Origin: Candidatus Woesearchaeota archaeon
Lineage (GTDB): Archaea > Nanobdellota > Nanobdellia > Woesearchaeales > SM23-78
NCBI GenBank assembly: GCA_016935175.1
Contig: JAFGRK010000008.1
Span: 1-56,702 of the forward strand
Length of the DNA: 56,702 nucleotides
Direction of reading: 5' to 3'
Below the pieces are notes generated by a model. The model did not search any database, was not told the origin of the DNA, and was given only the letters and a program-made list of their open reading frames with translations. The stretch's first letter is position 1; each line of letters begins with the position of its first letter. This document shows positions 5,890 to 34,706 of this stretch, one piece after another. The position numbers and the translations under genes are program-made.

Positions 5890-6009
5890 TGAGCCGGACA
5901 ACAGAAAAACTTCGTTTTTCTGAGTCCTCTCATCTCGCTCTGCTCGATGAGCCGGACGACGAACAAAAAACGAGTTTTTTGAGTCGCCGCCTCATCTCAC
6001 TATGCTCGA
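5890..6009 (-). repeat. Two extra copies of the tRNA-Lys 3' end, each with an A/T hairpin
   Basis: On the minus strand the 16-nt tRNA-Lys 3' end plus trailer (6004-6019) recurs at 5942-5957, and its first 9-10 nt recur at 5890-5899. Between copies sit perfect hairpins at 5964-5981 (CAAAAAAC/GTTTTTTG) and 5902-5922 (CAGAAAAAC/GTTTTTCTG). Each hairpin is extended by an imperfect complement of the tRNA acceptor strand (for example CGAC/GTCG, CGG/CCG, GAG/CTC), so each ~60-nt unit is an imperfect palindrome. The function is unknown. Confidence 0.85.
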
Positions 6010-6134
6010 TGAGCCGGACGAGATTTGAACTCGCGACCACTGCATCTCTTTCAGCTAATATGTTAAAAGTGCAGTGCTCTATTGCCCATGCTTTTCATCA
6101 TCATAAAAGGCTTACCAGGCTGAGCTACCGGCCC
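6010..6134 (-). tRNA. tRNA-Lys(TTT) with D-loop and anticodon-loop introns
   Basis: Acceptor strands GGGCCGG and CCGGCTC pair, and the discriminator base is A at 6010. The D-stem is GCTC/GAGC, the anticodon stem CTGCA/TGCAG (6070-6074 and 6040-6044), and the T-arm has GTTCAAAT. The anticodon loop reads C-T-TTT-A then A, giving TTT. Two insertions interrupt it: 33 nt in the D-loop (6080-6112) and 18 nt at canonical 37/38 (6046-6063). Removing both leaves 74 nt, a normal tRNA without encoded CCA. A TATA-like box at 6157-6166 is centred 27 nt before G1. The rpoH operon follows on the same strand. Confidence 0.9.
6080..6112 (-). other. 33-nt intron in D-loop of tRNA-Lys
   Basis: This extra block lies between the D-loop bases AGCCTGGTA and the D-stem strand GAGC. 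It has internal complementarity (CTTTT/AAAAG, GCC/GGC), as expected for a spliced intron. The tRNA only reaches normal length if it is removed. The borders are approximate. Confidence 0.75.
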
Positions 6135-6156: not shown

Positions 6157-6166
6157 GATAATATAC
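6157..6166 (-). promoter_or_regulatory. TATA-like box for tRNA-Lys
   Basis: GTATATTATC on the minus strand is centred about 27 nt before the first base of tRNA-Lys. That is the spacing seen for TATA boxes across the window. Confidence 0.55.
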
Positions 6167-6258
6167 GCCCTGGCCGGCAACAAAAACTGATGTTTTTGAA
6201 TCAGCTTCGGCTGAAAACAAAAACTGATGTTTTTGAGCCGTCCATTGCGTTCTGCGAA
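6166..6258 (-). repeat. Extra copy of the tRNA-Asp 3' end with two identical A/T hairpins
   Basis: The tRNA-Asp 3' terminus (6259-6270 on plus) is repeated exactly over 12 nt at 6166-6177. Between the copies an 18-nt perfect hairpin, CAAAAACTGATGTTTTTG, occurs twice (6181-6198 and 6218-6235), separated by a small TCAGC/GCTGA hairpin. The inner edge (6235-6250) is a degenerate complement of the tRNA end (GCCG, CCA and GCG pair with CGGC, TGG and CGC). The whole unit is an imperfect palindrome of the same design as those beside tRNA-Lys and tRNA-Leu. Confidence 0.85.
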
Positions 6259-6271
6259 CGCCCTGGCCGGG

Positions 6272-6313
6272 AAAGTCGACTTCGTCTTGTTCCTTTCAAA
6301 CCAGTCCGAAAGT
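6272..6313 (-). other. 42-nt T-loop intron of tRNA-Asp
   Basis: The insertion lies between T-loop TTCGAAT and the T-stem strand CCCGG. On the tRNA strand it starts ACTTTCGG and ends GAAGTCGACTTT, and contains an ACTT(T)CG/CGAAGT helix. It matches the tRNA-Arg T-loop intron at 36 of 42 positions in ungapped alignment. Confidence 0.85.
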
Positions 6314-6392
6314 ATTCGAACCCGGGTCGAAGCCTTACCGTGACCTCAATGATGATTGATGATTATGAGTTCTCGACAGGGCTTCATGATAG

Positions 6393-6431
6393 CTGCTGCA
6401 ACAAAAGCCATCTTATTGGCTTAGTGCTGAG
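6393..6431 (-). other. ~39-nt D-loop intron of tRNA-Asp
   Basis: This block interrupts the D-loop between AGTCTGG and CTATCATG and contains an AGCCA/TGGCT hairpin. Removing it restores a normal D-arm. The end points can slide by a base or two because of flanking repeats. Confidence 0.7.
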
Positions 6432-6436
6432 CCAGA

Positions 6437-6604
6437 CTACACCACCAGGGCACTTCGTGCCTGCTGAGCATCCCAAACAAGTTTGGTATGCACCAGGGCA
6501 CACTTAGCGTGTTGATCATGAAGCTTCTTGGTAAAGTCGGGTGATTTTGTCGTCGAAAAGAGCATTGGCTCGCTTGTGCTTTCATCATACACTTTTAGAA
6601 CCAT
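6437..6604 (-). CDS. Possible small protein overlapping tRNA-Asp 5' end
   Basis: A 55-codon frame starts MVLKVYDESTSEPMLF and stops at a TAG formed by the tRNA-Asp D-arm GTGTAG. The N-terminal half reads like a real protein. The last ~18 codons cross the duplicated tRNA 5' end and its hairpin, so that part is probably not a conserved sequence. GGAGG is only about 3 nt before the ATG, which is too close for a normal ribosome site. No family was recognised. It could be a chance frame or a gene eroded by the tRNA-end insertion. Confidence 0.25.
   Translation of the reverse strand: MVLKVYDESTSEPMLFSTTKSPDFTKKLHDQHAKCALVHTKLVWDAQQARSALVV
6452..6501 (-). repeat. Extra copy of the tRNA-Asp 5' end with hairpin
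   Basis: The 11 nt covering the tRNA-Asp 5' end (6443-6453 on plus) recur at 6491-6501. Between them, on the minus strand, are a CCAAAC/GTTTGG hairpin and the strand CAGCAGGCAC, an imperfect complement of the tRNA 5' end. The unit therefore folds on itself like those at tRNA-Leu. Confidence 0.8.
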
Positions 6605-10776: not shown

Positions 10777-12690
10777 CTAATAATTAACCATTATCTCTAC
10801 GTCTTCTCCAAAGATGCCCTTGAGGTCCTCAAATATAGGCTCCTTGATGAACACTCTTTCTGGCATCTCTATGCCTGTGAGCGCCTTCTCATATTCCTCT
10901 AGCGAGCTGGATTCCTTGTTGGCGAGCTTGCCAGAAGGCAGTATGTCCGCCTTGGAGATGTCCTTCTCCTCATTGTCAATGTCATGGATGATGAAAGCCC
11001 TCTTGCCCAGCAATACCACTTCCCCGAACTTGCTGCCGTACTTCACTCTCAGCCTGGTCTTCTCAAGCTCAAGGCCTCTCTTGCGCTGGATATACTCAAC
11101 AAGGAACCTTATGAGCTCCCGGGAGTCCTTCTGCACGCTATCAACCTCTGCCTTGGTAAGCTTGCCAGCGTCATAGTCTTTCTTGGCCTTCTCAATCTCC
11201 TTTAGCATGCGCAAGTATTTCTCAGGTATCAATCCCTTGCAAACCACTTCTGTCTCAAATATCTTAATCATCTCGCCATCATTTACCTTTTCCACTCCCT
11301 CAAGCCTGAGGATGTCCCTTACAATGGTGACTATGCTCTCGTAGCTATGCAGCACGCTCTCCCTCTCCTTCTTCTCCTGTATGGACTTGAAGAGCTCCTG
11401 CAGTCTCTTGAGGTATTTCTCTGCATCCTTGATTATCACGTCAACCTCTGCGCCTGTGAGGTCTTTCTTGGCGCCGTGCTCCAAGTCCTTCCTTACCCTA
11501 ATGTTGCGCTCAAGTATCTGCACATACTCCTCCTCGAGCAATTTTTCCTTGGTGACGAATATGTCCCTCATCACATCAGGAGTCTCCTTTGGCGTAGGCG
11601 GAGGGATGCCATAGAGCATCAATGCTGCCTGGCTCGGCGTGAGGATTGCATAGAAAGTGTCTTCCATGCCTATGTCCTTTATCTTGAACTTCACCCTCTC
11701 AATCATCTGGTCTCCTGTGCTCATGAACATGTCAATGGCTTCCTGGCTTGGCTTAATCCTTCCCATCTGCAAGAGCAATTTCCAGGGCATGAATATTCCC
11801 CTGTCATAGAAGGGAATGCCGTCCCTTAGGAAGGTGAAGAATATGGGATTAGCCTCCTTTATCCCCTCCCAGAAGTCAGTCAGGATGTAGACCTGGATAT
11901 TTATCTTGTTCTCAATGCCAGTCATCTTGCCAGCCTCAAAGCCCATGCCAATGATTATAGCCCTTAGCTTGTCCTTGAGCTCAGCCCTAGTCATCTTCTT
12001 TACATCAGTGTCATCAATGACAATGAACACGTCAATATCGCTTGAAGGAGTGGCTTTGCCCTGCACCACGCTTCCAGCAAGCACATAGGCGACAATGTAC
12101 TTCTCGAACTTCTTGAGCACCATGGTCTTGTGTATCTCAGAAATCTTTATTGCTGCGAGCATTCCTGTGTCATGCACTGGCGCGCTCATGGCAATCATCT
12201 GCAAGACTTCGTACTTGGCATCATAGCAAGCCTGCCATACCTCTGTGAGAATCATGGTCTGCGCTGCAAGGTTAGGGTCAATCTCAACTGCCATCTTCTC
12301 GATGATGCCAGCCAGCCTGTCCTTGAGCTCTTCCTTGCTCATCTTCTGCGAGTCAGAATCATCCACTAATACAAGGACATTGATCTTCTCTTTCTTCTCA
12401 TCCTCCTTGTCAGGGGGGAGGAGGGCGACTGCCATTATGTAGCCTTCAAACTTCTCAAGGAGCTTCTTCTTGAAATCATCTAGCTTGTCCTTTATCTCCT
12501 CCAGCTTTTTCTTGGCCTCATCAGGTATCTGCTCAGCAAGCTTGTCAAGCTCATTGCTCAAGCCGCCAGCTTCACCGCTGCCTACGACATCAACAGAGTA
12601 AGACTTCTTGCCAGCAGCCTCTTTTGCTTCAGCAGCCCCTTTGCCTTTTTCCACAGCCTCTACCTTTTCAGCCTTTATTTTTTTCGCCAT
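10777..12690 (-). CDS. Large protein with polymerase-beta-type nucleotidyltransferase domains
   Basis: 637 residues. The N-terminus is Lys/Glu/Ala-rich and charged. A domain at about 75-165 resembles a degenerate nucleotidyltransferase. An intact one at about 195-290 has LAGSVVQGKATPSSDIDVFI, with G-S at about 204-205 and the two metal-binding aspartates in DID. The C-terminal half is helical and charged and was not recognised. The ATG at 12690 is used. GGTGA lies about 8 nt before it, and an upstream copy of that site is separated by two hairpins. Two linked copies of the domain suggest one catalytic and one regulatory copy. Confidence 0.7.
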   Translation of the reverse strand: MAKKIKAEKVEAVEKGKGAAEAKEAAGKKSYSVDVVGSGEAGGLSNELDKLAEQIPDEAKKKLEEIKDKLDDFKKKLLEKFEGYIMAVALLPPDKEDEKKEKINVLVLVDDSDSQKMSKEELKDRLAGIIEKMAVEIDPNLAAQTMILTEVWQACYDAKYEVLQMIAMSAPVHDTGMLAAIKISEIHKTMVLKKFEKYIVAYVLAGSVVQGKATPSSDIDVFIVIDDTDVKKMTRAELKDKLRAIIIGMGFEAGKMTGIENKINIQVYILTDFWEGIKEANPIFFTFLRDGIPFYDRGIFMPWKLLLQMGRIKPSQEAIDMFMSTGDQMIERVKFKIKDIGMEDTFYAILTPSQAALMLYGIPPPTPKETPDVMRDIFVTKEKLLEEEYVQILERNIRVRKDLEHGAKKDLTGAEVDVIIKDAEKYLKRLQELFKSIQEKKERESVLHSYESIVTIVRDILRLEGVEKVNDGEMIKIFETEVVCKGLIPEKYLRMLKEIEKAKKDYDAGKLTKAEVDSVQKDSRELIRFLVEYIQRKRGLELEKTRLRVKYGSKFGEVVLLGKRAFIIHDIDNEEKDISKADILPSGKLANKESSSLEEYEKALTGIEMPERVFIKEPIFEDLKGIFGEDVEIMVNY

Positions 12691-12741
12691 CAAAAATCAC
12701 CCCGCGGTGATTTTTGGGGCACCAAAAAACTCTGTTTTTTG
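12691..12741 (-). repeat. Two A/T hairpins separating duplicated GGTGATT sites
   Basis: CAAAAATCACC/GGTGATTTTTG (12691-12716, perfect 11-bp stem) and CAAAAAAC/GTTTTTTG (12723-12741) lie directly before the gene at 12690. The minus strand reads GAGGTGATTCTT, then both hairpins, then GGGGTGATTTTTGATG. The ribosome-binding region is thus present on both sides of the insertion. The first hairpin buries the proximal copy in its stem, which could affect translation. Confidence 0.7.
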
Positions 12742-12952
12742 CTTGCCAGAAGAATCACCTCTCATATGATAAATCATTAACTATCATTAAACCCTTTACT
12801 AATCCCTATTTACGAGAATAAGCAAGTAAAGGATTGTTTATAAAGGTTATGATTAGAATAGGAGAGAATAGGAGAGCACAACACAGAAAATTAAAAGGGA
12901 AAGGAAAGATAAAAAGAAAAGAAAGCAGAAAAAAATAAAAAGCTTATTGGGC

Positions 12953-27338: not shown

Positions 27339-27565
27339 ATAATGTTTATGCAGATAATTGGCTGCGTTAAAAAAAGTCGCCCTCGGCACCCCGGATGGGG
27401 CAAGCAAAAGCTTTGCTTTTGGTGCCACAAAAATCCAGAGGATTTTTGCCGGCAACCCCCGCCTCTGCAGCCGCCATGCAAGTCATTCGCAAAGGCTCAT
27501 GACATTGCATAGGCTGCAGGCTGCGGCGACTTTTTCAACAAAGCCATAGATAATGTTTATGCAGA
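27339..27565. mobile_element. MITE-like element E2 with terminal inverted repeats and 16-bp direct repeats
   Basis: Perfect 11-bp inverted repeats AAAAAGTCGCC (27371-27381) and GGCGACTTTTT (27525-27535) bound a 165-nt interior. Outside them ATAATGTTTATGCAGA occurs exactly at 27339-27354 and 27550-27565, like a target duplication. The interior has hairpins CAAAAGC/GCTTTTG (27405-27421), CAAAAATCC/GGATTTTTG (27428-27448) and CTGCAGCC/GGCTGCAG enclosing ATGCAA/TTGCAT. It has no coding capacity, so it would need an enzyme supplied elsewhere. A structured RNA is the alternative. Confidence 0.65.
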
Positions 27566-29000: not shown

Positions 29001-29046
29001 GGGCTGCAAATCATAGCAATAATTACGCCTCTGTGGCTCAGTGGTA

Positions 29047-29088
29047 CAGCAAGCGGAAAAAGCAGTTGCTCTCCATTGTTGCACGCCA
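29047..29088 (+). other. 42-nt D-loop intron of tRNA-Thr
   Basis: The insertion between GTGGTA and the D-stem strand GAGC contains AGCAA/TTGCT pairing. Removing it restores a standard D-arm. Confidence 0.7.
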
Positions 29089-29104
29089 GAGCACGTCCTT
29101 GGTA

Positions 29105-29162
29105 CCGCAGGCTGAAAAGCCGAGGACGCAAAAATCAAGATTTTTGCGACGCGAAGGCAAAT
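29105..29162 (+). other. 58-nt composite anticodon-loop intron of tRNA-Thr
   Basis: This intron lies at canonical 37/38. Its first ~18 nt (with a GGCTGAAAAGCC hairpin) would already form a complete intron, because AGGACG follows at once (29123-29128). A further hairpin insertion then repeats AGGACG (29163-29168). This looks like a second insertion with a 6-bp duplication. Confidence 0.65.
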
Positions 29163-29184
29163 AGGACGGGGTCGAGGGTTCAAT

Positions 29185-29215
29185 AGGATTTTCACGTGAA
29201 GTGAATTCCGGAAAG
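29185..29215 (+). other. 31-nt T-loop intron of tRNA-Thr
   Basis: The insertion lies at the same site as in tRNA-Asp and tRNA-Arg, after TTCAAT and before CCCTC. It can form a GGA(T)TTTCAC/GTGAATTCC hairpin. Its sequence is not clearly related to the Asp/Arg intron. Confidence 0.75.
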
Positions 29216-29241
29216 TCCCTCCAGAGGCTTGAAATAGAAAA

Positions 29242-32709: not shown

Positions 32710-32792
32710 AAGGCCAGCATCTGCCTGCGCAAAGAAAAACACTTATAAACAATAATCACTTCTATTTTCCCAATCGAATATAAGCAATATGC

Positions 32793-32915
32793 GCGGGCGT
32801 GCCGGAAGGCAAAAGTGAGCTTTTGCACCGTCACGCACCGAGTGCAAGAAACTATACATGCGGGCGTGCCGGCAGTCAAAAATCAGAGATTTTTGGGCCG
32901 CCACTCTCCGCTAAC
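32793..32915 (+). repeat. Two extra copies of the tRNA-Leu 5' end, each with an A/T hairpin
   Basis: GCGGGCGTGCCGG, the first 13 nt of tRNA-Leu (32916-32928), also occurs exactly at 32793-32805 and 32860-32872. Each copy is followed by a perfect hairpin (GCAAAAG/CTTTTGC at 32809-32826; CAAAAATC/GATTTTTG at 32877-32895) and then an imperfect complement of the 13-mer (GCGTG/CACGC and CGG/CCG in unit 1; GCGG/CCGC, GTG/CAC and CGGC/GCCG in unit 2). The best TATA box (32741-32750) lies before both, so they should be in the tRNA leader. Confidence 0.88.
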
Positions 32916-33021
32916 GCGGGCGTGCCGGAGTGGAAAACGGGCAGGACTTAAGTTCAAGCCTAAAGCTGATAAGCTATCCTGTGGCTTAGTGCCTACGAGG
33001 GTTCGAACCCCTTCGCCCGCA
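32916..33021 (+). tRNA. tRNA-Leu(TAA) with anticodon-loop intron
   Basis: Acceptor strands GCGGGCG/CGCCCGC pair and the discriminator is A. A long variable arm (TGGCTTAGTGCCTAC) marks a class II tRNA. The anticodon stem is CAGGA/TCCTG and the loop C-T-TAA-G-A. A 23-nt intron lies at 37/38 (32953-32975), leaving 83 nt. The T-arm GAGGG-TTCGAAC-CCCTT is not interrupted, unlike in tRNA-Asp, -Arg and -Thr. Two partial copies of its 5' end precede it. Confidence 0.93.
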
Positions 33022-34582: not shown

Positions 34583-34706
34583 AAAAGCTCAGGCCGCCGA
34601 AGCCATTGTTTGCGACGCAAAAGCATTTTTGCTTTTGTTGAGCAAAGGCGAGACGAAGCTGAGTTCGCATCAAGGGCGAACGAAGCGCAGTAAGGCCTGA
34701 GCTTTT
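34583..34706. repeat. Structured element E3 with 13-bp terminal inverted repeats
   Basis: AAAAGCTCAGGCC (34583-34595) and GGCCTGAGCTTTT (34694-34706) are perfect inverted repeats. Inside are a CAAAAGC/GCTTTTG hairpin (34618-34637) and GTTCGC/GCGAAC. It lies between divergent genes, where a terminator is not expected, which favours an inserted element or a structured RNA. No clear flanking direct repeat was found. Confidence 0.6.

Follow-up and report, generated by a model that had tools for sequence, protein, structure and literature searches.

Two palindromic units stand between the promoter and the tRNA-Leu(UAA) gene of an uncultured Woesearchaeota archaeon, each opening with a copy of the tRNA 5' end, and they belong to a repeat family that extends through the genome and the lineage, a scope beyond that of the preliminary description. 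We give an even chance to the reading that these units are palindromic double-hairpin repeats that duplicate whichever gene end they entered and have proliferated in this genus of Woesearchaeota. An interrupted tRNA or open reading frame remains intact because its end has been duplicated, and the element probably stays harmless by rebuilding the gene end in this way. The units have a common architecture, recur as a family across loci, are present or absent at orthologous sites, and carry direct copies of the gene end (S) that track the tRNA and inverted copies (S') that covary with it. Read toward the gene, the architecture consists of S, a hairpin with the foot CAACARAAA..TTTYTGAG or a variant of it, S', a second hairpin or a spacer, and the working S.

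The window, by which we mean the whole 56.7-kb stretch of DNA analysed, is contig C20 of a Woesearchaeota MAG (1.22 Mb, 94% complete), the DNA of which was examined as stretches amounting to ~1/3 of the genome. The orthologous loci likewise lie in Woesearchaeota MAGs, and every genome compared is a MAG.

The leader of tRNA-Leu(UAA)

The sequence GCGGGCGTGCCGG, the first 13 bases (nt 1-13) of tRNA-Leu(UAA), occurs exactly at 32793-32805, 32860-32872 and 32916-32928, as originally noted, and nowhere else on either strand of the window; resemblance among the S copies extends to ~23 nt at 87% identity. The third occurrence is the working S of the tRNA gene (32916-33021, + strand), and the first two open leader unit 1 (32793-32859, +) and leader unit 2 (32860-32915, +), whose lengths of 67 and 56 nt proved correct. 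Unit 1 is made up of the S copy, an A/T hairpin, the inverted copy and a spacer. The hairpins are perfect, as had been claimed: GCAAAAG-tgag-CTTTTGC in unit 1 (32809-32826, +) and CAAAAATC-aga-GATTTTTG in unit 2 (32877-32895, +). The imperfect inverted copies are equally present, namely CCGTCACGCACC in unit 1 (32828-32839, +) and GGCCGCCACTCTCCGC in unit 2 (within 32896-32911, +), the fold placing the mismatch opposite tRNA nt 10 in both. Folding, which had been proposed as a check, gave -28.5 kcal/mol for unit 1 (z -3.5), far better than shuffled sequences; against shuffles, unit 2 reached -24.8 kcal/mol (z -3.3) and both units folded together -53.3 kcal/mol (z -3.5).

The promoter of the transcription unit, recognised from its archaeal BRE/TATA sequence (AAAGAAAAACACTTATAAA, 32731-32749, +), lies ahead of both units as described earlier, and a near-identical promoter is found at the orthologous locus of G001, G003, G004, G005 and G006. 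The tRNA itself is intact and matches the Rfam tRNA model (RF00005) at 45.6 bits, tRNA being the only family matched in an Rfam search of the window. ARAGORN gives no call at 32916-33021, presumably because of the intron of this tRNA, a 23-nt canonical (37/38) intron placed at 32953-32975 (+) from the sequence and from a CM insert between the anticodon and the 3' stem, with inferred boundaries.

Unit number at orthologous loci

The earlier prediction that relatives would differ in unit number at this tRNA is borne out by the orthologous tRNA-Leu(UAA) loci, recognised by an upstream 108-aa gene: two units are present in the source genome, one each in G006 and G003, and none in G004, G005 and G001. 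The outer copy tracks its tRNA, reading GCGGGCG in the source genome and G006 and GCGGGGG in G003; a GCGGGTG outer copy is found at another tRNA-Leu gene of G002. Trailers vary similarly. The tRNA-Leu upstream of the 'KNEQLMELLQ..' gene has two trailer units in the source genome, three in G006, one in G005 and none in G003 and G001, and on contig C7 of the source genome five 3' end copies in succession, with differing hairpins, form an array behind a tRNA-Leu. The leader at tRNA-Leu(UAA) may have had a single origin. Insertions that rebuild the tRNA end, as first suggested, fit these data, and tRNA 3' ends and protein start codons show rebuilding of this kind too; as to there having been two in succession, one insertion followed by later duplication of the unit fits equally well, and units 1 and 2 have little in common beyond S and hairpin type.

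Copies of tRNA ends across the genus

Around 120 tRNAs from seven congeneric genomes, all of them visible to the Rfam model, own-end copies (12-mers with <=2 mismatches) were counted ~12 times upstream (expected 1.8) and ~21 times downstream (expected 1.3), with permuted ends, i.e., the ends of other tRNAs, as controls. An upstream 13-mer copy with <=1 mismatch accompanies 8/120 real tRNAs and 0/577 controls. Chance repetition is ruled out by the permuted-end controls; an assembly artefact is likewise ruled out, the units diverging from each other and the pattern recurring in many independent MAGs. Leader copies start at nt 1 and trailer copies stop at nt 73, the discriminator base, in tRNA-Leu, tRNA-Ser and others. 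Read on the other strand, trailers have the leader layout: copy, AA, hairpin CARAAA..TTTYTG, A, inverted copy, small hairpin and working end.

With the Rfam tRNA model only 13 tRNAs are found at E 0.01 in the source genome, the model seeing so few because the tRNA genes are full of hairpins and introns. The window holds at least three further tRNAs of this broken-up kind (tRNA-Lys, tRNA-Asp and a probable tRNA-Thr), named by eye from anticodon or end sequence; across the analysis, several tRNAs and genes were identified by eye. The tRNA-Asp (~6259-6451, - strand), in a region (6166-6499) where ARAGORN and Rfam tRNA searches detected none, has one leader unit (6452-6499, -) consisting of a GCCCTGGTG copy, a hairpin CCAAAC..GTTTGG and GCTCAGCAGGC, the S' motif of which recurs in the tRNA-Asp leader of G003, and one trailer unit (6166-6258, -) with two nested CAAAAA hairpins and a terminal copy of the tRNA 3' end (CCGGCCAGGGCG). 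The tRNA-Lys (~6010-6134, -) has insertions in its D-loop and anticodon and is followed by two trailer units in tandem, of which unit 1 (5948-6009, -) ends in a TCCGGCTCA copy, and unit 2 (5890-5947, -) has the core CTCAGAAAAACGAAGTTTTTCTGTTG and ends in the same copy; neither ARAGORN nor Rfam detected this tRNA at 5890-6134.

Several related arrangements were seen. The probable tRNA-Thr (29027-29230, +), undetected by both tRNA searches, has introns; one long insertion bears a hairpin, and another lies in the T-loop. At G005:C20:22714-22788 and G005:C10:37194-37298 a tRNA 3' part is followed by a second T arm and 3' end copy with a T-loop intron; at the former the 15-nt downstream flank is duplicated too, and the T-loop intron is in one copy only. 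Trailer or leader arrays of tRNA-Leu with other hairpin sequences occur in other families, at L015 (G049) and at L033 and L243 (G048).

The hairpin core beyond tRNAs

The core CTCARAAA..TTTYTGTTG occurs 11 times in the source genome, 30 times in G002, 26 times in G003 and not at all in the incomplete G001, with 0-1 matches for a reversed-pattern control. Nearly all matches are perfect hairpins, though the pattern does not require pairing. The core is near background in most other families and strongly enriched in the genus of the source genome; in 423 kb of source DNA, 30 CAAA-opening hairpins were found versus 0 in one randomised copy. Cores are located in tRNA trailers, intergenic arrays and gene starts, and in frame in proteins. 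At 36 readable core sites, mostly away from tRNAs, S (<=1 mismatch) was recognised in 12 (expected 1.5) and S' (>=5/6 paired) in 16 (expected 4.6). In-frame copies in two G002 genes encode near-identical peptides (..QQKSEISEGSSGTKQE.. and ..QQKSKISEGSYGTKQE..), and open reading frames, read by eye, continue through the element at L188, L194 and L198.

The conserved uS13-uS4 junction offers a protein-coding counterpart to the tRNA-Leu loci. The element is present there in G002, G004 and G006 (ATGGGA duplicated) and in G005 (TGGGA duplicated), followed by a Shine-Dalgarno-like GGTGA or AGGTA ahead of the working start, and the junction is plain in G000, G001 and G003. In the window, a gene-start relative at 12685-12765 (-), translated by eye, comprises the ATG of a possible leader peptide upstream, then two hairpins and an ATGGCG start. 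A Shine-Dalgarno GGTGA lies inside one of these hairpins, overlapping the stop codon of the possible leader peptide, and similar set-ups were seen at uS4 and other genes of relatives. A protein gene at L209 (source contig C24) has three successive start copies (ATGGTCAAC, TTGGTAAATATC and TTGGTAAACATAAAC) with hairpins between them, like the double leader of tRNA-Leu. Two further elements were also noted in the window: a MITE-like element at 27371-27535 with inverted ends AAAAAGTCGCC/GGCGACTTTTT and CAAAA hairpins inside, relatives of which lie at loci L218, L222, L223, L224 and L229 of the source genome, and a further inverted-repeat element at 34585-34704 (AAGCTCAGGCC..GGCCTGAGCTT) enclosing a CAAAAGC hairpin.

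Conservation and folding of the leader units

By a strict pattern, the tRNA-Leu leader duplication is found in 13/352 genomes of the order (control 0); one genome in another order of the class has it as well, and seven families of the order have similar units ahead of tRNA-Leu. In G048, two tRNA-Leu genes carry two to three such units in tandem. Leader units of tRNA-Leu outside the genus mostly have no CARAAA foot. Twenty leader units from eight genera fold alike, with an S:S' stem from near nt 1, a mismatch or small loop near nt 9-10, and beyond it a small helix, usually a 3x1-type loop and the hairpin. S' covaries with tRNA positions 5-7: 52/60 cells are paired versus 39.6 when shuffled, and 0/20000 shuffles are as high, in a test that ignores shared ancestry and uses a hand-read S:S' register limited to these positions (MAFFT misaligned S' between families). 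At position 6 G-C, T-A, C-G and A-T pairs all occur.

These data bear on the reading that the unit is a selected, structured pre-tRNA leader, whose S:S' minihelix would mimic the acceptor stem and aid RNase P, folding or the regulation of tRNA-Leu; we regard this as possible, if improbable. The leader structure for RNase P offered as an alternative in the preliminary description thus gains some support from an architecture and S:S' pairing common to several families with compensatory changes, and from the RNase P RNA encoded in the source genome (E 3.4e-38). The common stem and hairpin of the 20 units and the covariation of S' speak for such a leader, as do the hairpin stems shared by families f4 and f10, which differ by compensatory G-C/C-G swaps, and the unpaired nt 10, which recurs with CCGTCAC in both f62 and the other-order genome. 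A conserved functional leader would, however, be expected in most relatives, and the units vary in number from zero to three and are missing from most; the same architecture is also seen at tRNA 3' ends, at start codons and inside proteins. Moreover, the shuffle test ignores kinship, and the covariation may mean no more than that each unit copied its target. Equilibrium folding also stands against a selected leader, with the S of unit 2 preferring to mispair with the tRNA 3' strand (0.86 vs 0.06), in folds that differ by only ~2.6 kcal/mol; we infer that the unit hairpins form first during transcription. The conserved architecture spans families and even reaches another order, which suggests more constraint than neutral insertion would impose; together with the covariation, it suggests that a functional leader should be kept in play.

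Origin of the units

Two things favour the account of a palindromic repeat family: sites are polymorphic for insertion, and units turn up in proteins and at start codons as well as at tRNA ends. On this account, the units would originate by insertion or by repeated template-switch copying and be near-neutral to the host; template switching at the moment of insertion would be the simplest idea for the inverted target copy. In the RNA, the outer S would pair with S' and so not compete with the real 5' strand, RNase P would presumably remove the leader, and tRNase Z the trailers. Tentatively, we would go further and propose a class of elements in which each member repeats, in direct and in inverted orientation, the end of the gene that it enters (a tRNA from nt 1 on or from nt 73 inward, or a start codon), a dedicated reaction recognises gene ends for insertion or copying, and the copies of tRNA ends are kept in step with the tRNA as it changes.

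Against this account count the apparent constraint on the leader architecture, the usual lack of the CARAAA foot in tRNA-Leu leaders outside the genus, and hairpin interiors that change from nearly every locus to the next, as those of a copy-and-paste element would not; our searches also linked no transposase or other mobiliser to the element. REP elements are mobilised by Y1/RAYT; a search for Y1 transposases found none in the source genome (94% complete), G001, G004, G005 and G006. They were found only in G002 and G003, the genomes with most copies of the element. The IS200-type Y1 genes at G003:C57:28136 and G002:C8:5664 are one with an in-frame TGA and one fragment. A Y1/IS200 mobiliser was rejected, the neighbouring hairpins being unrelated to the CARAAA element, and is kept as a weak lead.

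An origin with no dedicated element, in which replication template switching and small tandem duplications make hairpins and end copies and the gene-sparing ones survive, appears unlikely to us. Template switching is a known source and maintainer of perfect RNA hairpins (PMC8794818), a single event giving perfect stems and compensatory change at once, as here, and it accounts for S' and for stems that are variable yet perfect; the duplication at G005:C20:22714, covering the tRNA 3' part and 15 nt of flank, is a plain tandem one. Against this stand the foot CAACARAAA..TTTYTGAG common to unrelated sites and recurring at gene ends, its enrichment in the genus over a near-background level in most other families, and the near-identical coding copies in two proteins.

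We consider it very improbable that the splicing endonuclease processes the units as introns or as remnants of split or permuted tRNAs: the tRNAs are intron-rich, include D-arm introns with a proper bulge-helix-bulge after CCGG (G002:C22 and G004:C50) and have a T-loop or D-loop intron inside some outer copies, but by inspection the S/unit junctions have no bulge-helix-bulge (a 3x1 loop inside and a 1x1 mismatch outside), and RNase P RNA is present, unlike in Nanoarchaeum. A bulge-helix-bulge intron in the leader was rejected on the folds of the 20 units, in none of which two 3-nt bulges flank a 4-bp helix, and an RNase P-less lineage of the Nanoarchaeum type is ruled out by that RNA. Integrase att sites characteristically involve duplicated tRNA ends, but we hold it extremely unlikely that the units are attachment-site scars of integrative elements using tRNA ends, given that both tRNA ends, start codons and the interiors of open reading frames are affected, that spacing is short (mostly 35-85 nt), and that there are inverted copies and variable S lengths.

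Relation to known repeats

Compared by description rather than by sequence, the element appears to work like the double-hairpin elements (DHE) and to resemble the Rickettsia palindromic elements in its tolerance of coding sites. DHE of Allomyces mitochondria, as summarised in PMC7218506 from Paquin et al. 2000, are alike in having two adjacent hairpins, small size and a presence or absence between relatives that was interpreted as mobility. Trailers, gene starts and intergenic arrays here have two hairpins, an S'..S hairpin and the CARAAA hairpin, the second hairpin of leader units often being just a spacer, and presence is optional at the same site for tRNA-Leu(UAA) and the uS4 start. The Woesearchaeota element differs from DHE as described there in its direct and inverted target copies, its archaeal chromosomal setting and its placement at tRNA ends and start codons. 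The Rickettsia elements (PMC2635572) are palindromic repeats in frame in protein genes, as are the copies at L188, L194 and L198, whereas the Woesearchaeota units, again judged by description, have variable interiors, target-copy flanks and a concentration at gene ends. In the Thermoproteales, according to the summary in PMC4090602 of Fujishima 2010, tRNA introns have transposed, and tRNA genes there gained multiple hairpin-forming inserts; unlike these introns as summarised, leader and trailer units lie outside the mature tRNA, duplicate its ends and have no bulge-helix-bulge.

We found no report of such tRNA-end copies in the open-access literature. Cyanobacterial small dispersed repeats are very small, palindromic and dispersed, and thus alike in size, palindromy and dispersal; we know of no end duplication among them.

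Significance

On the practical side, no more than 11-13 tRNAs of this 94% complete genome are recognised with the Rfam tRNA model. If the reading of a palindromic double-hairpin repeat family is true, leader units, trailer units, tRNA introns, start-codon units and coding inserts would form a natural series for testing the birth of hairpins and tRNA introns, and archaea would gain a palindromic repeat class of their own, one that inhabits essential genes without breaking them.
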